Positions 4,603 to 33,776 of a DNA stretch of 35,490 nt are shown here, piece by piece. The notes below the pieces were generated by a model. That model made no database searches. It was not told the origin of the DNA and worked only from the letters and a program-made list of their open reading frames with translations. The position numbers and the translations under genes are program-made. The stretch is from a virus, in the IMG/VR virus record IMGVR_UViG_3300048838_000201, positions 1-35,490 of that record; one strand, written 5' to 3'. The number at the start of each line of letters is the position of its first letter. Position 1 is the first letter of the stretch.

Positions 4603-4814
4603 GAGTGCAACACCTGCTCGCCCGTTACCTGGCCGGCAATGGCCATGGCCATGATGCGACTGCTTGCCACCCACTGGGGGTGGTTGACAATTCGTCACAG
4701 CTCTTACAATACGATCCACACTTCACGATGTTCGTCGAAGCCTTCGCGTCATGGGCAATCGAAGAATTGCAGAAGAGCAACCTCCCACTATCAATAACCC
4801 CGGCTGGCCATTAG
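4599..4814 (+). CDS. small hypothetical phage protein overlapping the serine recombinase (71 aa)
   Basis: The frame is open from 4500. The ATG at 4599 is preferred because it overlaps the previous stop as ATGA. The product has an N-terminal helix (VQHLLARYLAGNG), a His-rich turn (GHGHDATACHP) and a C-terminal amphipathic helix (MFVEAFASWAIEELQ). Its last 64 bases overlap the start of the serine recombinase in another frame. Such an overlap suggests translational coupling, or that the recombinase starts later than its first ATG. No family is recognised. Confidence 0.5.
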   Translation: MRVQHLLARYLAGNGHGHDATACHPLGVVDNSSQLLQYDPHFTMFVEAFASWAIEELQKSNLPLSITPAGH

Positions 4815-6556
4815 CGGGCGGTTACTACCGCAAGTCGCAGGTCTTCGGCGAAGAGGATCGCGTCTCAACGCAGCGACAGCGTGACGCGATCACACGCGAA
4901 GGCGAGCGCACCGGCCACAATATCGAGTGGTGGTGCGACGAGGAAGGCCACCGCAGCGGCCGGCACGATCACACGCGGCCAGGCTACATGCAGTTCAAGC
5001 GCCGGCTGATCAGCGGCGCATATCGCACCGTCCTCTTCTATCGCCTCGACCGTGCAAACCGCAGCATCAAGGAGACCATATGGCTCGTCGAGCACTGCCA
5101 GAAAGCCGGCGTGCGGCTGATCATCATCCGCGACGGCTTCGACAGTGCGCGCGACGGCTGGCAGGCCAGAGCCATCAGGCGGCTGTATCACGACGCTGTA
5201 GACAACCAGGGCGAAGCCGACGATGCCGCCGACCGCATGCGCGATGCGATCCGTCACGCGAAGTCGAAGGGCATTCCATGGGGCACGACACCGAAGGGAT
5301 ATTTGAGAGTGGGCGTCGGCTCGCATGCGAAGTGGGTGAAGCGCGATCACCATGAGCCGCACGCGAAACGGCAGCACGACAACAGCGCCGGCGACGTGCG
5401 CACGTGGCTCACCCTGTTTGCAACGAAGAGTTACCAGGCCACAGCCCACGAGGCCAATAAGCGCGGCATGAAGTGGTATGACCGCGAAGGCCTCCCTACC
5501 CCGCTCACGTCCGACCGGATCCGGCAGATCGCCGGCAACCTGCTGACGTATTGCGGCTACCTCATGCCAGCGGGCGGCCACGCCAAGGCGCGCCTGGTGA
5601 AGCTGGACGGAACCGGCACGCTGCTCGATCAGTTTGCCCGGGCCTACGACGCCACGCGCACCGATCACATCGAGCCGATCCTCGACCCGATCACCGACCA
5701 GCCGCTCATCGAGCGCATCATCGCCAAGCGGAGGCAGGCACAAGGTGCGCTTGATGAGCGAGGGCGCAGAGCAAAGAAGCGCGTCGGGATCCTGACGCCG
5801 GCCTTGTTCTGGCGCCGTGACGATGGCCGGCTGATCAAGCTTCGAAGCCACGACAACAACGGCACGCACTACTACATCACGCGCACTCGCCCGCAGATGT
5901 CGTGGCATGCGCATGAGGTCGAGGAGATGTTATTGGAGCAGCTCCGCGGCGTGGCCTTCCCACCGGCGGCGCTGGGTCGCATCCGGCAGATCGTCGCCGA
6001 GCAGCACGGTGATGCGAAGCGCGCTGAGGCGCAGGCGGCCGTCACCCGCGCGCGCAATCGCCTGGTGGCCATCGATGAGATGCGGCTGGAGTTGAAGGCC
6101 CGGCGCGCCGGCGGCGAGATCGACGCGAATCGATATGCGGAGGATGACGCGCGATACCGGCAGATGCAGCACGACGCCGAGCTGCAATTGTTTCAGGCGC
6201 AGCGCGTGCTGAACAGCGCCGGTGACATCGACCAGGTGATCGGGCTGCTCACGGATCTGGGCAGGAGCATCGACCGGCTCACGCCGGAGTTGAAGCGCAA
6301 GGCCTTGCAGGGCTTGTTTGCGAAGAAGATCATCAATGCCGGCGGCGAGGTGATCAGGCTGGAGCCGCAGGTGTGGATTGCGCAGGCCTTCGGTGAACTG
6401 GTGTGGGCGTGGCGTCACGCCCACCCAGCGCACCAAGACCAAGAAGAGAACGACGCCATTAACGACGATATACCAAAAGTGACCCCTACGGGACTCGACG
6501 CCGGCATTGGGATATCCCCGCAAACAGCCTGGCTGCTGGAGCGCATTGCGGCCTGA
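4751..6556 (+). CDS. large serine recombinase
   Basis: A 601-residue large serine recombinase, in the normal size range. The catalytic domain (about 24-160) has the nucleophile Ser29 in YYRKS, the Q-R-Q-R-D-A helix near 41-46, RPGY at 76-79 and the arginine motif YRLDRANR at 97-104. A recombinase DNA-binding domain follows (about 175-330, with GIPWGTTPKGY and TSDRIRQIAGNLLTYCGY). The zinc-ribbon position (about 346-378) reads LTPALFWRRDDGRL and contains no cysteine pairs. A charged coiled coil lies at about 425-480. It would catalyse integration, excision or inversion by a serine-DNA intermediate. The ATG at 4751 overlaps the preceding gene, and no better in-frame start precedes the YYRKS motif. 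It is the last gene of the + strand module. Confidence 0.93.
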   Translation: MGNRRIAEEQPPTINNPGWPLAGGYYRKSQVFGEEDRVSTQRQRDAITREGERTGHNIEWWCDEEGHRSGRHDHTRPGYMQFKRRLISGAYRTVLFYRLDRANRSIKETIWLVEHCQKAGVRLIIIRDGFDSARDGWQARAIRRLYHDAVDNQGEADDAADRMRDAIRHAKSKGIPWGTTPKGYLRVGVGSHAKWVKRDHHEPHAKRQHDNSAGDVRTWLTLFATKSYQATAHEANKRGMKWYDREGLPTPLTSDRIRQIAGNLLTYCGYLMPAGGHAKARLVKLDGTGTLLDQFARAYDATRTDHIEPILDPITDQPLIERIIAKRRQAQGALDERGRRAKKRVGILTPALFWRRDDGRLIKLRSHDNNGTHYYITRTRPQMSWHAHEVEEMLLEQLRGVAFPPAALGRIRQIVAEQHGDAKRAEAQAAVTRARNRLVAIDEMRLELKARRAGGEIDANRYAEDDARYRQMQHDAELQLFQAQRVLNSAGDIDQVIGLLTDLGRSIDRLTPELKRKALQGLFAKKIINAGGEVIRLEPQVWIAQAFGELVWAWRHAHPAHQDQEENDAINDDIPKVTPTGLDAGIGISPQTAWLLERIAA

Positions 6557-16437: not shown

Positions 16438-18516
16438 TTATGGCCCGGACCTCCGGTAGTTGCGCTTGGCGTCTAGTGCAGCCGAGCCGGCGCCGCGGTT
16501 GATCGCGGCGCGCGCCACCGTCGCCCCATCCACGTTCACGTTGACGGTTTGCGGCCTGTCGGGCTTTTCGGGCTCAGGCGGCGCCCACGTGTCCAGGCTG
16601 CCGCCGGTCGGAATGACCGGCTGCGATCCGGTGCGCGGCGCGTAGTTGTAGAAGTCGCCGGCGAGCTGGTCGAGGCCGATCACCATGGCCTTGATCGTGA
16701 CTGTCTTTTCGGACGGCAGTGACCTCACGCGATCATGCAGGTCATCCACTGCCGGCATGCCTGTCACTGTTGCGTCGACTTTCACCTCTGCCTTCCCGGG
16801 CAGGTTGTCGACGCCCTGGGACAGTTGAAGCGTTTTCGCCACGCCCTCGGTTGCCGCTGCGGTGAACTCGTTCAGGTCGTTGATGTAAGGCTGTGCAGCG
16901 GGGCCGGCCGCCTGCAGCGCGCGGGCGTAGTCGACCTGCCCATTGCGCAGGGCAAGCACCAGGCCGAGCGCATCGGCCATCGTGATGGATCCGGCATCAA
17001 AGCCCTTCATCACGCCCTGCACCGCTATCTTCATTTGCTCCTGCGCAAGCGTGGTCTGCCCGGTAGCCAGCGCATACGCTGCCTGCAGCTTCTGCATCTT
17101 GTTCATCGGCTCAAGGCTGGCGCCCATCAACCCCTGCATCTGCTGGGTGCGCTTGTTGAGCTCGCCCTGCGCATCGCTCACCCGTTCGAGCGCGGATGCA
17201 GCCGCGCCTCCGCCTCCAGCCATGCTGTAAAGCGCTCCGGCCGTCTTGGCCGTTGAGTTGCCGAGCTGGTCCATGCGCTGTCGCCACTGGCCGGTCTTCA
17301 GGTTCAGTCCCAGCATGTTGAGCTCACTTTGCCTCAACAGCGGGATGCCTTCGCGCTGCGCCATGTTGAAGCGCATCTGGCTGTACGCCGCGTTGGCCTT
17401 GCTGCGATCCAGATCTGCCATCCGCGCTTCGAACTGCGCCAGGCTGATGATCTGCGTTGCTTGCACAAACTGCCCCGCCGCCACGACCGCGTTATTACCG
17501 GCACCCAGCGCAGCCTGACCGGCCACCTCGAAGTTGTTGGAGATGCCTGACAGCGCGGGATTGAGCCCAAGCACGGACGCAAGCACCAAGTCGAATGACC
17601 CGCCCAGCTTGATGAAGGTTTCGTTGCTCAAGCTGCCCTTGCTTGTAACCTCGCCAAACGCCCTGCCAACCATGTCAAACGCTTGCGAAAGGCGATTCCC
17701 GCCGTCGGTGGCCCGGTTGGAGTTCTCATACAACTGGGTCAGCAATGGAATGGCCATGTTGCCGATGACCACGTTGGTTCTGTTCTGGGCATCCTGGAAG
17801 CGCGCTTGAGCCTCCTCAAACCGTCGTGCGGCAGCCACCGCGCGCTCGTCCACCAGCCGGCCGGCTCGGTCTGCCGCCTGGGCAAACTGGTCCAGCCCTT
17901 GAGATCCCTGGGCGAGGATGGGCAGGAGCTTCAGGCCGGCATCGCCGAACATCTTCATGGCCAGCGTGTTGCGCTCGATCCCTGGCGGCATGCGCTGGAA
18001 CTGATCAGCCGCTGCGGCCAGTTCCTGCTGGATATTGGCCGCGCTGCCCTTGGTCGCAACCAGATAGCGGCTGAACGCGCTCATCGAGCCGTTGAGCACA
18101 TCCTGGGAGAGCTTGTATCGCTCGGTGGCATATGACAGGGCGCTGACCTGCTGCAGCGACAGGCCGGTGGACTGCGCGAGCCTGTCCATGGTCAGCGTGA
18201 GTTGTGACGATTTCTGCGCCGCTTCCATCACTGCCGCGCCGACCTTTTGCGGCATCTGAACCAGTTCGGATGTAAGGCCGCCAACGAATCCGCCGACGAC
18301 GCTAGACATGAGCGTGGCAGGCAGGCTTTTGAGCTGACCAATGGTTTCGGTCAGCGCGCCCTGCATCTTCGTGCCTATGCTGTTAAGTGACTGCTGGGCG
18401 CGCGAGCCGAGCTTGTTCAAGCCGGTCTCGATCTGCGTGAGGCCTGTGGTGACCTGCTGCCCGCCGGTCATGGAGGCGCGCACCTCGACGCCTACAGTGC
18501 TGTTTGCAATCGGCAC
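16438..18516 (-). CDS. tape measure protein
   Basis: A 692-residue tail-length ruler using GTG at 18516. GAGAGG eight bases upstream and the preceding stop (TAA, then C, then GTG) fix this start better than the earlier ATG of the open frame. The sequence is long and helical, rich in Ala/Gln/Ser, with internal hydrophobic segments (LPATLMSSVVGGFVGGLTS). Segments such as MDRLAQSTGLSLQQVSALS resemble phage tail tape-measure proteins. The C-terminus is Pro/Arg-rich. By the general rule of about 1.5 angstrom per residue, it suggests a tail of roughly 100 nm. It directly follows the tail assembly chaperone, the normal order in long-tailed phages. Confidence 0.9.
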   Translation of the reverse strand: MPIANSTVGVEVRASMTGGQQVTTGLTQIETGLNKLGSRAQQSLNSIGTKMQGALTETIGQLKSLPATLMSSVVGGFVGGLTSELVQMPQKVGAAVMEAAQKSSQLTLTMDRLAQSTGLSLQQVSALSYATERYKLSQDVLNGSMSAFSRYLVATKGSAANIQQELAAAADQFQRMPPGIERNTLAMKMFGDAGLKLLPILAQGSQGLDQFAQAADRAGRLVDERAVAAARRFEEAQARFQDAQNRTNVVIGNMAIPLLTQLYENSNRATDGGNRLSQAFDMVGRAFGEVTSKGSLSNETFIKLGGSFDLVLASVLGLNPALSGISNNFEVAGQAALGAGNNAVVAAGQFVQATQIISLAQFEARMADLDRSKANAAYSQMRFNMAQREGIPLLRQSELNMLGLNLKTGQWRQRMDQLGNSTAKTAGALYSMAGGGGAAASALERVSDAQGELNKRTQQMQGLMGASLEPMNKMQKLQAAYALATGQTTLAQEQMKIAVQGVMKGFDAGSITMADALGLVLALRNGQVDYARALQAAGPAAQPYINDLNEFTAAATEGVAKTLQLSQGVDNLPGKAEVKVDATVTGMPAVDDLHDRVRSLPSEKTVTIKAMVIGLDQLAGDFYNYAPRTGSQPVIPTGGSLDTWAPPEPEKPDRPQTVNVNVDGATVARAAINRGAGSAALDAKRNYRRSGP

Positions 18517-18517
18517 G

Positions 18518-19104
18518 TTACTTACCTCTCTTTGCAGCGAACGCCGCCTTGATGTCGGCAAACTGGCCGGGTTCGTCTTTCGCCTGCTGATCTTGCCCCA
18601 GCGAAATCAGGGCCACGCTCAGGTCGAAGTCATAGGCCAGCCGCTCATCTTCAATGCCGAGGATCGCGCTGGGACGCTGGCCATACGTGGCGCCCACCAG
18701 GTGCAGCGCCTTTACTTCGTCTCGGTTTCTAAAAAACTGAGCAGCGTCGCCGGCGAGCTGTTCAGCCAGTTGAAGGTCGCCAGCTTGTCATCCACGTCCA
18801 GCTCGTCGATGCAGATCCCGCCTTCAGGGATCGGGTCGCCGGCCGGCACGATGACCGGCTCAAGCACCGCGCGCATGATGTGCGCGTCGATTGCGCCGGC
18901 GCATTTCTCGACCGCTTCACGCGGACTGATCGTCTTGTTCAACAGCGTGTCCACCTGGCCAACCAGGTTGGTCGGGATGCTGCCGCTTGCAGCCATCTGC
19001 AAAAGCGACAGCCTGCGGATGCGCACACGAAGGCCTGAGGGTAACTCGCGCCATTCGCCCTCAGACTTTTTCTTGCGCCACTCGGGAAGATTGACTTGTG
19101 GCAT
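18518..19104 (-). CDS. tail assembly chaperone, -1 frameshift product (gpGT-like)
   Basis: Reading the upstream gene to the heptamer T-TTT-TTA at 18736-18730 and slipping back one base gives an open extension of 70 codons, with its stop at 18518. The extension starts FFRNRDEVKALHLVGATYG and contains QRPSAILGIEDERLAYDFD and SLGQDQQAKDE. This is a sensible protein and not random frame. The fused protein has 195 residues. In long-tailed phages the G and GT-type chaperones bind the tape measure during tail assembly. The stop lies one base before the tape-measure GTG. Ribosome profiling or mass spectrometry would confirm it. Confidence 0.8.
18712..19104 (-). CDS. tail assembly chaperone, unshifted product (gpG-like, 130 aa)
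   Basis: The frame is open further upstream, but the ATG at 19104 (MPQVNLPEW) is chosen. It lies one base after the stop of the tail tube gene, and the upstream part of the frame is Arg/Pro-rich shadow sequence. The product is soluble and helical, with ELPSGLRVRIRRLSLLQMAA, EAVEKCAGAIDAHIMRAVLE and a C-terminal FNWLNSSPATLLSFLETETK. Place and length fit the short form of a siphovirus tail assembly chaperone, which is normally made in excess over the frameshifted form. No strong ribosome site is seen, so translation may depend on coupling to the tail tube gene. Confidence 0.8.
   Translation of the reverse strand: MPQVNLPEWRKKKSEGEWRELPSGLRVRIRRLSLLQMAASGSIPTNLVGQVDTLLNKTISPREAVEKCAGAIDAHIMRAVLEPVIVPAGDPIPEGGICIDELDVDDKLATFNWLNSSPATLLSFLETETK
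18730..18736 (-). other. -1 ribosomal slippery heptamer TTTTTTA
   Basis: On the coding strand the unshifted codons are AGT-TTT-TTA, so T-TTT-TTA fits the classical X-XXY-YYZ rule for tandem slippage. The unshifted frame stops 18 bases later. The -1 frame continues for 71 codons including stop, ending directly before the tape-measure start. This position is typical of tail chaperone genes. Confidence 0.85.
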
Positions 19105-19105
19105 A

Positions 19106-19630
19106 TCAGGTGGTCGGCAGGGTGGCCGCCGTCTCGTTCTGTGTGACCGTCCATACGCCGTTGCCATCGCCTAGGTCGATGGCTGTGCCCTTGCACTTGG
19201 TGATGAAGAACGCGCCATCCTTGAACTCACCATCAAGGCCATCGCCGTCGATCTTGCAGTTGAACAGTGTCACCCAGGTGTCGTCTGCCCCTGGGCCCAT
19301 CGCCTTGCCGTAGACCTTGAAGTATGGGAATACATCGCCGGCCTTTCCGTTCAGCGTGATCTTCTGGCTCGGCGTGGTGCCGCTCGTCGTTACTGTGCGT
19401 CCAGTGAGCTTGGCGTAGGCTTCCAGCGAGATGCCGCCGGCTTCCAGTTCCCACTCCGCGCCATCGGCATACGACACGATGGCGATGCGCTTGTCGTTGC
19501 CGCGCAATGTGCCGCTCGTCGTGGTCTCCTTGAACTTCAGCGTCATCACCGCCGGCAGGTCGACATACGTGCCGCCTGTAACGATGCGAACCTGACGCAA
19601 ACCAAAGGGCTTGTCTCCAAATCCAGCCAT
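19106..19630 (-). CDS. major tail tube protein
   Basis: A 174-residue beta-rich protein (MAGFGDKPFGLRQVRIV, LPAVMTLKFKETTTSG, EWELEAGGISLEAYAKL). Its pattern and its position between the tail terminator and the tail chaperones match phage major tail proteins. It has the usual length for the shorter siphovirus tube subunits, with a slightly longer C-terminal segment. GGAGG ten bases upstream is part of the end of the glycosyltransferase gene, so the two genes are closely linked. The stop is directly followed by the chaperone start. This is the best tail-tube candidate in the window. Confidence 0.85.
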   Translation of the reverse strand: MAGFGDKPFGLRQVRIVTGGTYVDLPAVMTLKFKETTTSGTLRGNDKRIAIVSYADGAEWELEAGGISLEAYAKLTGRTVTTSGTTPSQKITLNGKAGDVFPYFKVYGKAMGPGADDTWVTLFNCKIDGDGLDGEFKDGAFFITKCKGTAIDLGDGNGVWTVTQNETAATLPTT

Positions 19631-19635
19631 GTCTG

Positions 19636-20685
19636 CTATACCTCCAATGCGCCCCTCAGTTCACCTTTCAGGGCAAATTCAAGACTGATTGCTTCCGACA
19701 GCACGCGCGCTGCGCGCTGCCACGTCAGATGCGTGTGAATCCACGCGCTTGCGCTGGCGCCAAACGCGGCGGCTTCCTCGCGGTGATCGGCGCACCAGCG
19801 CATGCGCTCGACGAGCTGATCGATGTCCGGCTCGCGCCAATCACCGATCGTGCCGGCATCCCACACGCCATATTCCGCTGACCGCGTGCCGCGCGTGTCG
19901 ATCGGCAATGCCCAGCGGTCTATGTCTACCGCCAGTCCGCCGGCGTTTGTGGTGATCACAGGCAGGCCGGTCGAGGCCGCCTCGCGCGGCGGGCTGCCCC
20001 ACCCTTCGCCCCGCGACGGGAACACGAAACAGTCGATCGCGGTCAGCCAGGCCAGCTGCGTTTCGGTGTCGAGCAGCCCGGTGATCACCTTCACATTCTC
20101 GTCACCAAAGCGCGGGGACGCCGGCAGTTCGTCCCTGAAATGCATGACGAGCCGCACATCCTTGCGCCGGCTGAAGGCCCGCGTGAAGGCCTGGTATGCC
20201 AGGTCCCAGCCCTTTCGCAGATCCGGCGTGCCCGACCACATGAACACATACGGGTCGTTGCGCTGCGCTCGAACGCGAAACGGGTAGTCGCGCGCATCGA
20301 CGCCCCATGGCACGATGTGAATTGGACGCTTCACACCGTTGTCGCGGAACACGTTAGCGCACCACTCGCAGGGCACCAGCAGCATCGCGGCGCGCCGGTT
20401 GACCACATCGGCCCAACCTGTGGGCAGCTTCGACGCCTCGAACATCGTGTAACTCACGAGCTGGCCGGCCGTGATGCTGTCAAGCCAGTCGGGCACGCAC
20501 AGCGCCACCACGGTGCCAGGCACCGCCCACGTGCGCGCTGTCGATCCGAACTGACCAGCCTCGTCACGCATGTCAAATGCGCGCCAGCCCAATTCGCGCG
20601 CGGCTGCGCTCAGCTTGATCGTGCCGACGCCATAGCCATCGCGCGGCATGTGAAAACCCATCAATGTGCGCATCATTTCCGGCAC
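19636..20685 (-). CDS. GT4-family glycosyltransferase inside the tail operon
   Basis: A 349-residue retaining glycosyltransferase with GT-B architecture. The N-terminal domain has MPRDGYGVGTIKLSAAARELG-like geometry, and the C-terminal domain has the acceptor/donor motif FPSRGEGWGSPPREAASTG. Glu227 and Glu235 form the EX7E pair that is typical of family GT4. VPWGVDARDYPF is the usual hinge segment. The start is a GTG directly after the stop of the upstream gene, with GGAGGG about ten bases ahead. An ATG four codons in is possible. It is transcribed between the tail terminator and the tail tube, so it would be made together with virion proteins. It may modify tail or capsid proteins, or host surface glycans. 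No membrane segment is visible. Confidence 0.88.
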   Translation of the reverse strand: MPEMMRTLMGFHMPRDGYGVGTIKLSAAARELGWRAFDMRDEAGQFGSTARTWAVPGTVVALCVPDWLDSITAGQLVSYTMFEASKLPTGWADVVNRRAAMLLVPCEWCANVFRDNGVKRPIHIVPWGVDARDYPFRVRAQRNDPYVFMWSGTPDLRKGWDLAYQAFTRAFSRRKDVRLVMHFRDELPASPRFGDENVKVITGLLDTETQLAWLTAIDCFVFPSRGEGWGSPPREAASTGLPVITTNAGGLAVDIDRWALPIDTRGTRSAEYGVWDAGTIGDWREPDIDQLVERMRWCADHREEAAAFGASASAWIHTHLTWQRAARVLSEAISLEFALKGELRGALEV

Positions 20686-21357
20686 TTAGCCTTCGCCCTC
20701 CCGGATGGTGATCTCGAAGACATTGCTCATATACCGGCTGCCGCCCTGCGCGTTGGTCGAGCTTTTCGTGATGACCACTCGCGGCTCATCCTTCGTCACA
20801 TAGGCGCTGTGCACCAGGCCGCCCAACGTGCGGTTGTGAAAGATCAGGTCGTAGAACGCCCCGACGAACTCGCGCATCATGCGGTCGGCCGTCGATGTCT
20901 CGTTCACTAGACAGTGACACGCCACCGCGTTGATCCTGTATTCCCGCGTGGTGAGCTGGCCAAAGGTGTCGGACGTGTTCACGCCGCCCATGTATTCGAA
21001 GAACATGAACGGCGCCGACTCGCTGAACACCGGCGGGATCGCGTCATACACCCAGCGCATGAACGGCTCGACGCGCACGCGTGGCGGCGCCGCGTAGCCA
21101 GCGCCCGTGTCGAGCAACGTCGCACCCGCGATGGATCCACCCGCCACGCTTGCAACCGCCTCAGCCGGGTATCGGCCCCCTTCGAACACCAGGCGCGCAT
21201 ACTGGCCGTAGCCACTGCCGCCGGCGTCCACCGTGACACCCGTCACCGCGCCGTTCGCGATCGTCGTCGACAACTGTGCGCCCGACCCTTGCGGGGTCAG
21301 CGCTTGCCGCGCGATGTCAGCCAGCGTGAGCACGACCGGGCGGATGTCGTACCTCAT
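20686..21357 (-). CDS. tail terminator-like protein with inserted beta domain
   Basis: A 223-residue protein whose start overlaps the preceding stop as ATGA. The N-terminal 30 and C-terminal 110 residues resemble tail-terminator or tail-completion proteins (for example MRYDIRPVVLTLADIARQ and VITKSSTNAQGGSRYMSNV). Between them, residues about 34-98 form a repeated Gly-rich module: VTGVTVDAGGSGYGQ, then AGATLLDTGAGYAAPPRVRV. This G-x-G-Y type repeat is common in phage structural proteins as an add-on domain. The position between the head-tail connector and the tube gene supports a tail-end role. The exact family is uncertain. Confidence 0.7.
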   Translation of the reverse strand: MRYDIRPVVLTLADIARQALTPQGSGAQLSTTIANGAVTGVTVDAGGSGYGQYARLVFEGGRYPAEAVASVAGGSIAGATLLDTGAGYAAPPRVRVEPFMRWVYDAIPPVFSESAPFMFFEYMGGVNTSDTFGQLTTREYRINAVACHCLVNETSTADRMMREFVGAFYDLIFHNRTLGGLVHSAYVTKDEPRVVITKSSTNAQGGSRYMSNVFEITIREGEG

Positions 21358-21941
21358 GGGCGCACCCGCTTGTAAGGCGAGAGCGCCTGCACGATGTCAC
21401 TCGGCATGGCGCTGGGCACCACGATTTGACCCACGTCGGGGAATGCAGTCACCTCGAACGGAGCCTCGCGCTTGTGATACAGGAACGCGGTGATGCGTGC
21501 GGCACTATGCACCAGGTCGTCGGGCAGGACGGCATAGCCGCCCTGGTAGCTCAGGCGTGCGAACAGGCGCCCATTCCTCGGCGCGTTCGCACCCAGGAAT
21601 GCGACCACGTAGCCATTGATGTCCATCTGGCTGAGCTGGAGCGCGGTCCACGTCTTCAGGTCGGTGGAATATTCAGCGCTCGTCACCGCCTGGCAGTAGC
21701 CCTTTGCGACGGTCACCACGAGCGCGCCATCAGCTTCGCTCACCACCTGCGGGGCACGCCGGATCTCGCCGGCGATCGCCTCGTCTGTGAACGCCAGCCG
21801 GCCGGCGAGAACGTGCTTGCAGGCTCGGTCCAGGAGCGCGCAGGCGCGCGGGATGCGCTCAACAATCGCGTTGTCGTCGACTGATGACGCGCCCAGCTTG
21901 GCGAGCTCTGTCCGGACTTCCTCGACAGTGCAATAGCTCAC
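21354..21941 (-). CDS. head-tail connector protein
   Basis: A 195-residue protein with a GTG start at 21941 and AGGAG eight bases upstream. The N-terminal helices (MSYCTVEEVRTELAKLG, then AIVERIPRACALLDRACKHV) follow the T-V-E-E-V and helix pattern of gp6/gp15-like head-tail adaptor proteins. The remainder has beta strands, with SYQGGYAVLPDDLVHSAARI near residues 135-155. It links the head genes to the tail genes in gene order. Such proteins form a dodecameric ring under the portal. It is followed by the tail-terminator-like gene with an ATGA overlap. Confidence 0.75.
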   Translation of the reverse strand: MSYCTVEEVRTELAKLGASSVDDNAIVERIPRACALLDRACKHVLAGRLAFTDEAIAGEIRRAPQVVSEADGALVVTVAKGYCQAVTSAEYSTDLKTWTALQLSQMDINGYVVAFLGANAPRNGRLFARLSYQGGYAVLPDDLVHSAARITAFLYHKREAPFEVTAFPDVGQIVVPSAMPSDIVQALSPYKRVRP

Positions 21942-22267: not shown

Positions 22268-23782
22268 TTAGACGCCGTCGGCGATGTTCGTGATGATGCC
22301 TATCGCAGACGGGAAGTAGTGCGCGAGCACGCCGTCGAAATACACACCCGACTCATACTGGCGCTTGGTAATCGGCCAGTCGATCTGGTAGTAGTCCTGG
22401 CGCAGGTGCATCTCCACAACGTTCGACACGTTGGCCGCCGGATACGGCAGGGTGTCGACATGCGCCATGATCGTGCCCGGGGCCGCGTCGGGGTGCAGCT
22501 CGAGGCGCACCAGCTGGCCGCCGCCCATCGAGTAGCGGTTCAGGTAGGAGCCAACCACCGAGCCGGCCACTACGCCGTTCAAGCCGTTCGAGAAGTCGCC
22601 AGCCATGCGCACGATCGGGCTGCCGCCATTCTTGATCACGAGCGCGGTGATGTTCTTCACTTCCTGCGAAGACACATACAGCACGTTCGGGCTCAGGCGG
22701 AAGTTGTCCCACATGCTCTTGAGCAGCGTCTCGATCTGGTCGACAGCGCCGTCGCTGTTCGAAGCGGCCAGCTTCGTGCCGGTGCCGGCGGTGCCGGTGG
22801 TCAGTGTCTGGACAGTGCCGCCGGCGAAGCCGAGGTTTAGCAAGCCGTCAAACTCGTAGGCATTCTTCGAGCGATCCGCAGTGAACAGCGAAGCCAGTGC
22901 CTGGCCGGTGCCGGCGAGGGCCGTGAGCTTCACGCTGTTGATCGTGGTGATGGCCTCCAGCTTTTCGCTGCCCGACTCGCCCACATACCAGGCATACGCC
23001 ACTGCGCCATTGACCGGGGTTACGGACGCGCTGATGGTGCTGGTTGTCCCGGTGGTGGTGGTGCTGCCGGCGCTCGACTTGGTCGCGGTGCCGGGGTTAT
23101 AGGTGTAGGTCGTGCCATCAGGCATCGTCACCGTTTGCACGCCTGGCACACCGTTGGCCATCGAGGAGGCCAACCAGCCGGCATGCGTCAGCGCCACGCA
23201 CACCACGTTATAGGCGGCGTTGGCGATGGTGCCGCCCGTGCCGGCGTTCGACACGGTCGGGGTCGGCGTGGTGCCGAGCGCAACCGCGTCGCCGTTGCCG
23301 CCGAAGATCAGGCGCTCTTCCTGGATCATGTTGGCCCAGAGCAGGCGCTGCGCCATGGTGGCGCGGATGTCTTCAAAGTTCACCGCGGCGTTCACGGCTT
23401 CGAAGGTCACGTTGTCTTCCAGGCCAACCGTTTTGTAGGAGGCCAGCTTGTCGGCGGTTGTCATCGACACCGTGCCATTGCGCTTGCCTTCCGGCACCGC
23501 GCCGCGAAGCTTGCCAGTGTTGATAGCCGTCACGACCTTCCAGCGGGTGGCGATGTCGCCGTTGCCCTTCACGCGCGGGATCTTGTTGCGCAGCGGGGTG
23601 ATCACCGGGAAGAGGTTCTTCGCCGGCGCCTGCAGGTCATACCAGGTCAGGCCAGTCGACTGGGTGATCGCCTTGTTCAGGATGCGCGGGTCGCCCGCAA
23701 GCGGCGAGCCGGCTGCCTTCTGAAACAAGGCAAGGGTGTCCTGGCTGATCTCATTCAAGCCAGAAATGAAATTGCGACTCAT
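22268..23782 (-). CDS. major capsid protein with inserted Ig-like domain
   Basis: A 504-residue protein. ATG 23782 (MSRNFISGLNEIS) is supported by AGGAGA upstream, while the open frame continues 11 codons further. The N-terminal helix, the FPVITPLRNKIPRV segment, RWKVVTAINTGK and the C-terminal region with a Tyr/Asp-rich strand (HLRQDYYQIDWPITKRQYES) match HK97-fold major capsid proteins of the longer type. Residues about 170-295 form a Thr/Gly-rich insertion ending in SVTPVNGAVAYAWYVG, which looks like an Ig/fibronectin-like surface domain. It is placed directly after the protease-scaffold gene. In the virion it would form the shell, with the insert exposed on the outside. Confidence 0.88.
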   Translation of the reverse strand: MSRNFISGLNEISQDTLALFQKAAGSPLAGDPRILNKAITQSTGLTWYDLQAPAKNLFPVITPLRNKIPRVKGNGDIATRWKVVTAINTGKLRGAVPEGKRNGTVSMTTADKLASYKTVGLEDNVTFEAVNAAVNFEDIRATMAQRLLWANMIQEERLIFGGNGDAVALGTTPTPTVSNAGTGGTIANAAYNVVCVALTHAGWLASSMANGVPGVQTVTMPDGTTYTYNPGTATKSSAGSTTTTGTTSTISASVTPVNGAVAYAWYVGESGSEKLEAITTINSVKLTALAGTGQALASLFTADRSKNAYEFDGLLNLGFAGGTVQTLTTGTAGTGTKLAASNSDGAVDQIETLLKSMWDNFRLSPNVLYVSSQEVKNITALVIKNGGSPIVRMAGDFSNGLNGVVAGSVVGSYLNRYSMGGGQLVRLELHPDAAPGTIMAHVDTLPYPAANVSNVVEMHLRQDYYQIDWPITKRQYESGVYFDGVLAHYFPSAIGIITNIADGV

Positions 23783-23825
23783 GTCTATTCTCCTGTGAGA
23801 GTGCGTGTCATCCAACGATCAGGGG

Positions 23826-31985: not shown

Positions 31986-33776
31986 TCACCTCGTAATTTC
32001 ATCTTCAGACAACGCGTCATAGACCTGGCGAGCACCCACCCAGACCTCATACAACCTCCCTTCGCCAGCCGAAACATCATTCACCAGCCTGTCGTCAATC
32101 AAGATGAGGGTTGGCACGTAGCGGGCGGTTGAACCGGTTGCAATCAGGATCAATGCACCGAGTGTGGCATTGACTTCACCCTCGATCAGTGACGGGTCGC
32201 TCTCGGCCGTGGCCACCAGCGTCAGCGCGCCGAGGGTTGCAGTCACCTCACCCTGCACACCCACGCCACCCTCAATGGCGGCCGTCAGTGTGCCGAGTGT
32301 CACATTCACGGCGCCGGCGATGGCGACATTGCCCTCTGCCGACGTGGTGAGCGCGCCCAGCGTGGCGTTCACCTGGCCATCGATGGAGGAGACGCCGGCG
32401 GCTGCAACCGTCAGCGCGCCGAGTGTGTTGCTCGCCTGACCTTCGACGGTGGAGTTGCCGGCGGCTACAACCGTCAGCTCGCCCAGCGTGGCGTTCAGCG
32501 AGCCTGTGATGGTGCCGTCCTGGACTTCACCCGTCGCCACCAGTGTCAGCTCACCCAGCGTGGCAGATACAACGCCATCAATCGATGAGATCGCCGCGCC
32601 GGCGGCTGTCAGTGCACCCAGCGTGATGCTGGCCTGGCCCTCGACGAGCGCATTGCCGGCGCTCGATGCAGTCAGCGCACCGAGCGTGGCGTTCACCTGG
32701 CCGTCGATGGAGGATCCGCCCTCGATGGTGGCCGTCAGCGCGCCAAGCGTCATATTCACGTCGCCGGCGACGGCCACATTGCCATCCGACGATGCGGTCA
32801 GCACACCGAGCGTGGCGTTCACATGGCCGTCGATCGAGGATGCGCCGACGGCTGCAACGGTCAGCATGCCGAGCGTGATGCTGGCCTGGCCTTCAACGGT
32901 GGAGTTGCCGGCAGCCGCACTGGTCAGTTCGCTCAGTGTGGCGTTCACGGCGCCGGCGATGGCGGTGACAGCAGTCGCGGAGGCTGTCAGCGCACCGAGT
33001 GTGATGCTGGCCTGGCCGTCAATCGACGAGCTGCCGGCGGCCGTGGTGGTGAGCGCGCCGAGTGTGGCGTTCGCCTGACCATCAATGGTGGAGTTGCCGG
33101 TGGCCGTGGTGGTCAGCGCGCCCAGCGTGGCGTTGAGTGTTGCCTCTGCCGCGCTCGACCCGGGCTTGATCGCGAGTGCGACAGTCGCCCAGTGACGCGA
33201 TGAGCCTTGCGCAAAAACAACATTCCCGCCATACCATCCGGCGGTTGGCATCACCTGCGAACAAATCCGCCAGCCTCGGCTTGTGCCGTTCCCGTTCGAT
33301 ATATCCGTCCATCCCGATGGCAAAGACGGGATGTTGCTCGTGCTGTCTACACCGACGATGATAACGAACAGCGCGTCGTCGGTGTTGGTCGTGACGCCAT
33401 AGGCGGAAATTTGTTCCGACAGGCCGGTGTTGGATAACACCGTCGCGTCACTCCACGACGCATCATGCCCCGTGTAACGAACTGTTTGAGCCGAGCCGAC
33501 GACGCTGCTGCCCAGGGTGTATGTGTAGCTGCCTGCCTCGCTCCCGTCCGCGATGCGTTCATACACCGCGACCAAAAACGAGCCTGTGCCGTTGTCAGCG
33601 CGGTGTTTGAGTGTCCAGCCAGTCGGCGGCGTGATGGAAAGGCTGGAGCCAGAATCCAGCATCAGACTCGTCAGCAGCAGGTCGCCGGCCGAGATGCCAG
33701 ACGGCATCGTGACGCTGGGCGACGATGTGGCCGAGGCGTAGCTGTTCGTGGCGACGGCAGCGGGAGTAGCTGTCAA
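31986..33776 (-). CDS. virion-associated protein with tandem 21-residue repeats
   Basis: A 596-residue protein in three parts. Residues 1-205 form a beta-rich domain (VTMPSGISAGDLLLTSLML, PPTGWTLKHRADNG, PSGWTDISNGNG) of a type I associate with phage structural or exported proteins. Residues about 211-551 contain sixteen tandem repeats of 21 residues (two of 24), consensus near D/E-G-Q-V-N-A-T-L-G-A-L-T. The last 42 residues form a conserved-looking cap (PTLILIDDRLVNDVSAGEG, ending VWVGARQVYDALSEDEITR). There are no Cys in the repeats. It may be a fibrous or beta-solenoid-like stalk of the virion. The start at 33776 has no clearly better alternative. Confidence 0.75.
   Translation of the reverse strand: MTATPAAVATNSYASATSSPSVTMPSGISAGDLLLTSLMLDSGSSLSITPPTGWTLKHRADNGTGSFLVAVYERIADGSEAGSYTYTLGSSVVGSAQTVRYTGHDASWSDATVLSNTGLSEQISAYGVTTNTDDALFVIIVGVDSTSNIPSLPSGWTDISNGNGTSRGWRICSQVMPTAGWYGGNVVFAQGSSRHWATVALAIKPGSSAAEATLNATLGALTTTATGNSTIDGQANATLGALTTTAAGSSSIDGQASITLGALTASATAVTAIAGAVNATLSELTSAAAGNSTVEGQASITLGMLTVAAVGASSIDGHVNATLGVLTASSDGNVAVAGDVNMTLGALTATIEGGSSIDGQVNATLGALTASSAGNALVEGQASITLGALTAAGAAISSIDGVVSATLGELTLVATGEVQDGTITGSLNATLGELTVVAAGNSTVEGQASNTLGALTVAAAGVSSIDGQVNATLGALTTSAEGNVAIAGAVNVTLGTLTAAIEGGVGVQGEVTATLGALTLVATAESDPSLIEGEVNATLGALILIATGSTARYVPTLILIDDRLVNDVSAGEGRLYEVWVGARQVYDALSEDEITR
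32124..33146 (-). repeat. sixteen tandem 63-bp coding repeats (21 aa each)
   Basis: Units encode variants of G-Q-V-N-A-T-L-G-A-L-T followed by Ala/Ser/Thr and Gly, ending I or V. Two units have a nine-base extension and 24 codons. TLGALT or a one- or two-residue variant is present in every unit. Near-identical stretches within this region can cause assembly collapse or copy-number differences among phages. Confidence 0.85.

Follow-up and report, generated by a model that had tools for sequence, protein, structure and literature searches.

A GT4 glycosyltransferase gene in a recurring slot ahead of the tail tube gene of an uncultured virus, and its putative role in virion glycosylation

Why would a phage tail module carry the gene of an enzyme that handles sugars? 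The question is raised by the record of an uncultured virus, the whole 35,490 bases of which were analysed (hereafter the window). Its only GT4 glycosyltransferase (GT) gene is encoded within the virion operon, as judged from PHROG-annotated neighbours and from gene order, which runs on the minus strand as terminase, portal, protease/scaffold-like gene, capsid, connector, presumed terminator, GT, tail tube, chaperone, tape measure and tail proteins. The features concerned are the following.

16438..18561, minus strand: tape measure protein (PHROG 8462, 2e-14)
18712..19167, minus strand: tail assembly chaperone-like protein (DUF7391; PHROG 4336), true start probably internal
19106..19630, minus strand: major tail (tube) protein, 174 aa (PHROG 4971, 5e-40)
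19636..20685, minus strand: GT4 glycosyltransferase, complete ORF, 349 aa counted from GTG
19641..19645, minus strand: Shine-Dalgarno sequence GGAGG belonging to the tube gene, within the final codons of the GT gene
19981..19983, minus strand: codon of Glu235, second Glu of the EX7E motif
20005..20007, minus strand: codon of Glu227, first Glu of the EX7E motif
20686..21357, minus strand: presumed tail terminator, 223 aa, assigned by position
21354..21941, minus strand: head-tail connector/adaptor (PHROG 5938, 7e-7; PHROG 442, 1e-5)
22268..23815, minus strand: probable major capsid protein with a Ser/Thr-rich loop (PHROG 13692, 4e-124, function unnamed)

A sequence-only reading of this DNA had placed the GT gene between a tail terminator and a tail tube gene. 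The downstream half of this claim is borne out by the match of the tube protein to PHROG 4971. The upstream half fits by position, but the product of 20686-21357 matches no terminator in PHROG or Pfam and does not resemble the terminator-like genes in other GT carriers. Its AlphaFold model is of low confidence (pLDDT 54), and at residues 21-97 it has an inserted GGSGY-type repeat domain, which other phages have in baseplate and virion proteins. The capsid candidate matches the 'major head protein' of phage MMB025. Elsewhere, the same record encodes both a tyrosine integrase (429-1427) and a large serine recombinase (4751-6556), as well as a 596-aa protein of repeated ATLGALT-type units without a Pfam match (31986-33776).

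The assignment of the GT product to GT4, with a GT-B fold, is confirmed by the agreement of Pfam, PHROG and fold. All Pfam matches are above cut-off (Glyco_trans_1_4, 6e-10; Glycos_transf_1, 2e-9; GT4-conflict, 8e-11), the Glycos_transf_1 domain exceeding its curated cut-off in the window GT and being matched in 13/13 members of its clade, and PHROG returns a glycosyltransferase at 2.6e-27. The AlphaFold model (pLDDT 90.1, pTM 0.88) has a TM-score of 0.74 to PDB 3oy2, the B736L protein of chlorovirus NY2A, which is the closest solved structure both by sequence profile and by fold. B736L is a viral enzyme thought to help in building virus-coded glycans (PMC4691112); it differs in coming from a eukaryotic virus, is 18% identical to the window GT, and its own substrate is unsettled. 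The two glutamates of the EX7E motif (E227-x7-E235, RGEGWGSPPREA) are invariant in a 13-sequence family alignment, as are R157/K158 and a P-rich loop, and an N-terminal DGYG loop is nearly conserved. The enzyme so predicted very likely transfers a sugar. The earlier description of an active-looking GT4 with this Glu pair holds, and structure prediction, which had been proposed as a check, returned an intact GT4 fold that matches solved GT4 enzymes. A nucleotide-level search of phage records gave no matches.

The TAA stop of the upstream gene abuts the GTG start (...GGCTAAGTGCCGGAAATGATG...), as had been noted, but an ATG at codon 4 or 5 may be the true start instead, because most relatives start at MxxTFxGFH. 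At the other end, the ribosome site of the tube gene (ATG at 19630) lies within the GT gene, again as had been read from the sequence, and the same is seen in the nearest relative, contig L002, the GT of which is 80% identical at the protein level. Between the window and L002, the GT has a dN of 0.14 and a dS of 0.85 (dN/dS about 0.16), comparable to the rates of the terminator (0.22/0.88) and capsid (0.08/0.65) genes, those of the tube gene being 0.06/1.01. GT composition (GC 0.65, GC3 0.79) is inside the range of the neighbours. The GT gene is thus a resident under purifying selection; this, its neighbour-like GC and the tube ribosome site in its end make it neither a fresh insert nor a decaying copy.

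Relatives were collected with the GT, and not the tube, as query. This search returned 13 other contigs, two of them with the same proteins; counting the window, there are 13 distinct contigs, each viral contig having one GT4 and none elsewhere. The next tail gene downstream of the GT is a tube homologue in 13/13, following directly or after one small ORF of about 100 aa, and a terminator-like ORF lies upstream in 12/13, the exception (L090) being truncated by the end of the contig. Far from being absent at this position in all close relatives, the gene is present in the nearest one, L002. The slot is the same although the genes around it differ: in most other carriers the terminator is of another family than in the window, and for L003 and L013 neither the capsid nor the portal gene has detectable similarity to its counterpart in the window. 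Further glycan-related genes accompany some carriers, with a GT2 ahead of the terminator in L013, a GT2 or GT2-like gene between the terminator-like ORF and the GT4 in L082, a methyltransferase in this same place in L085, and SAM methyltransferase genes in L084 and L085. Small, related SAM methyltransferases occur in or near the terminator-tube region of L084 (4902-5351), L085 (4152-4637) and L007 (2343-2855), in one of which no GT was seen. Four relatives lie on contigs binned into bacterial MAGs, in three cases Chloroflexota MAGs, a host hint that is to be read with the unreliable binning of phage contigs in mind.

The slot is also occupied by a second group of GTs in isolated phages. A separate, well supported GT4 clade includes genes of the Arthrobacter phages DanielleIgnace, Kitkat, KellEzio and BeatusComedenti and of the Microbacterium phage Magritte. 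According to their annotations, Kitkat, DanielleIgnace and Magritte have the order terminator, GT, small ORF, tube, chaperone, tape measure; the tail-protein flank of the slot is presumed or annotated in these phages, and for Magritte the annotation names both neighbours of the slot, a tail terminator on one side and a major tail protein on the other. Their GTs (gp29 of Kitkat, a Kelleziovirus, gp21 of DanielleIgnace and gp31 of Magritte) are annotated, and no study of them was found in the literature searched. They share with the window GT the GT4 family and the slot between terminator and major tail protein, but belong to the other clade and are 27% identical to it by profile alignment. Among 40 metagenomic relatives of this second clade, which include some duplicate or cut contigs, an unrefined seed profile places a terminator homologue upstream of the GT in 37, within about 1.3 kb in 35; the tube is at most 1.5 kb downstream in about nine and about 5 kb downstream in others. 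Several of these loci (L113-L141), many on contigs of 124-152 kb, have the tube about 5 kb after the GT, a gap that suggests additional tail genes, perhaps a sheath. The tree of the two clades, in which the outgroup is too distant, is compatible both with a slot inherited from a shared ancestor and with one gained twice. The best isolate matches of the window GT, those of Streptomyces BE/BK phages (Faust gp18/19, Tomas gp45) and of the Rhodococcus phage NiceHouse (gp47), at most 31% identical, differ in adjoining ribonucleotide reductase genes, outside the tail module. Since the same position is found in 13/13 carriers and again in a second GT4 clade, the slot is not accidental, and the comparison of gene order that had been proposed thus finds it conserved.

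Conservation of the slot does not mean that it is always filled. The same tail genes occur without any GT4 in contigs L006, L008 and L019. The capsid protein of L006 is 85% identical to that of the window, and only 14 bases separate its terminator and tube genes, leaving the site empty; the GT gene is likewise absent from the terminator-tube site of Virus Rctr41k. Mapped on the tube tree, GT presence requires about 6 gains or losses by parsimony, at least two of which are forced by well supported branches. The gene is therefore dispensable, and its retention is patchy. This counts against the claim that it is locked into the virion operon and is no accessory gene, of which the part that stands is the retention of the operon slot in 13 contigs.

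Among phages, glycosylation of the virion has been demonstrated, in the literature searched, for a few mycobacteriophages only. In Corndog, the virion operon includes genes for an O-methyltransferase and three transferases; these enzymes were found in infected cells but not in the particle, with capsid modification proposed (PMC4351075). Glycans on the C-termini of capsid and tail tube proteins of mycobacteriophages including Corndog are credited to Freeman 2023 by the papers that cite that work (PMC12619734, PMC11600133, PMC12363180). The cassette of Corndog and Cluster O (O-methyltransferase, two GTs and a GlcNAc-transferase) resembles the loci described here in embedding glycan enzymes and a methyltransferase in the virion operon, but it lies elsewhere, between the genes for portal and capsid protease. 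The sole Cluster O enzyme compared, gp36 of Firecracker, reached an hhalign probability of 0.2 against the GT4 profile, hence no detectable similarity, so that the GT4 may work like the Cluster O enzymes, but membership of their family is not supported. The annotation of Muddy lists no glycosyltransferase.

The best explanation, to which we give slightly better than even chances, is that the GT4 is a putative virion-glycosylating enzyme with the tail tube as its likeliest target, working in the manner of the Corndog cassette; by this analogy, action on some virion protein is most likely. Judging from operon position, a soluble retaining GT4 would be produced late in infection, at the same time as the tail proteins. 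With a host nucleotide sugar as donor, it would glycosylate a virion protein while this is being synthesised or shortly afterwards. The likeliest acceptor would be the tube subunit, which probably outnumbers every other protein of the tail module, and the particle could benefit by being shielded or by having its surface altered. The tube is favoured because the link between GT and tube persists where head and terminator genes have been exchanged for others; against it, operon position informs on timing and not on substrate, and in second-clade genomes of large size (124-152 kb) the tube is about 5 kb from the GT. Glycosylation of virion proteins had been proposed in the sequence-only reading: fold, conserved slot and the Corndog precedent speak for it, while its suggested targets (tube, capsid Ig loop, fibre) are indistinguishable. 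The observation as a whole is confirmed and its interpretation partly supported.

A GT expressed late with the tail genes could instead glycosylate an envelope polymer or receptor of the host, blocking re-adsorption of progeny or superinfection. The related GT4 enzymes WaaG, PimB' and EpsE work on envelope lipids and polysaccharides, the PHROG family of the GT is classed as moron/host takeover, and its patchy occurrence suits an accessory trait. We nevertheless regard such a role as rather unlikely, as it accounts neither for the retention of the terminator-tube slot by two GT4 clades, in phages that differ greatly from one another, nor for the methyltransferase and GT2 that share it. If the slot were simply a tolerant insertion point, for a moron without a virion-linked role, the empty sites and the repeated gains or losses would be expected; a tolerant site should, however, hold many kinds of genes, yet glycan-related genes recur in it, and the GC and GC3 of the GT, its purifying selection and the overlap with the tube Shine-Dalgarno sequence in the window and L002 make this quite improbable. 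Action on DNA, as a modifying or counter-defence enzyme, is brought to mind by the GT4-conflict match and by the DNA-modifying phage glycosyltransferases credited to Pyle 2024 (cited in PMC12619734); the GT lies inside the tail module, and a Pfam scan of 20 window proteins found no base-modifying partner, although the record is possibly a fragment. We hold this reading to be very improbable.

Within the virion, the main target could be the capsid, with its Ser/Thr-rich loop, or a fibre. This is a minor alternative to the tube, and an improbable one. The Corndog cassette stands beside head genes, and the capsid is its proposed substrate (PMC4351075); the window capsid has such a loop, whereas the window tube has no special acceptor site. 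Against this, the slot tracks tube genes across phages whose head genes have no similarity, and in the alignment the capsid loop (STTTTG) is equally rich in Ser/Thr in the GT-less L006; the loop was rejected as a GT-linked acceptor.

We propose tentatively, as a reading that is doubtful at present, that tailed phages have a locus dedicated to glycosylation at the terminator-tube junction, from which enzymes of two or more GT4 clades, in some cases joined by a GT2 or a methyltransferase, would decorate the tube across several host phyla. If so, tail glycosylation would be widespread beyond mycobacteriophages. This kind of gene is already known; what appears to be new is the GT4 clade and the recurring tail slot, no description of which was found in the literature searched. 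From a conserved slot beside the tube gene it can be predicted in which further phages the particle would be glycosylated and which protein should be examined, and the isolated phages Kitkat, DanielleIgnace and Magritte make this prediction directly testable.

Tube sequences were compared between carriers and non-carriers of the GT. A Ser/Thr-rich C-terminus was rejected as a carrier-specific acceptor, being common to non-carriers: the last 15 residues contain 3.5 Ser/Thr in carriers vs 3.2 in non-carriers (p 0.8), and overall Ser/Thr content does not differ either. The column of window position 135 is Ser/Thr in 8/12 carriers and 0/14 non-carriers (p 3e-4 uncorrected, about 0.06 corrected for about 190 columns); it was set aside as an acceptor, the window having Glu there and the tandem tube paralogues of non-carriers having, by eye, Thr. 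Coevolution of GT and tube was also rejected, the signal being due to two near-duplicate pairs, without which GT and tube identities are not correlated (Mantel r 0.14, p 0.27). Two tandem, diverged tail tube genes are present in L007 (4534-5593), L009, L010, L015-L018 and L092 (7128-8265), the last of which combines them with a GT4.
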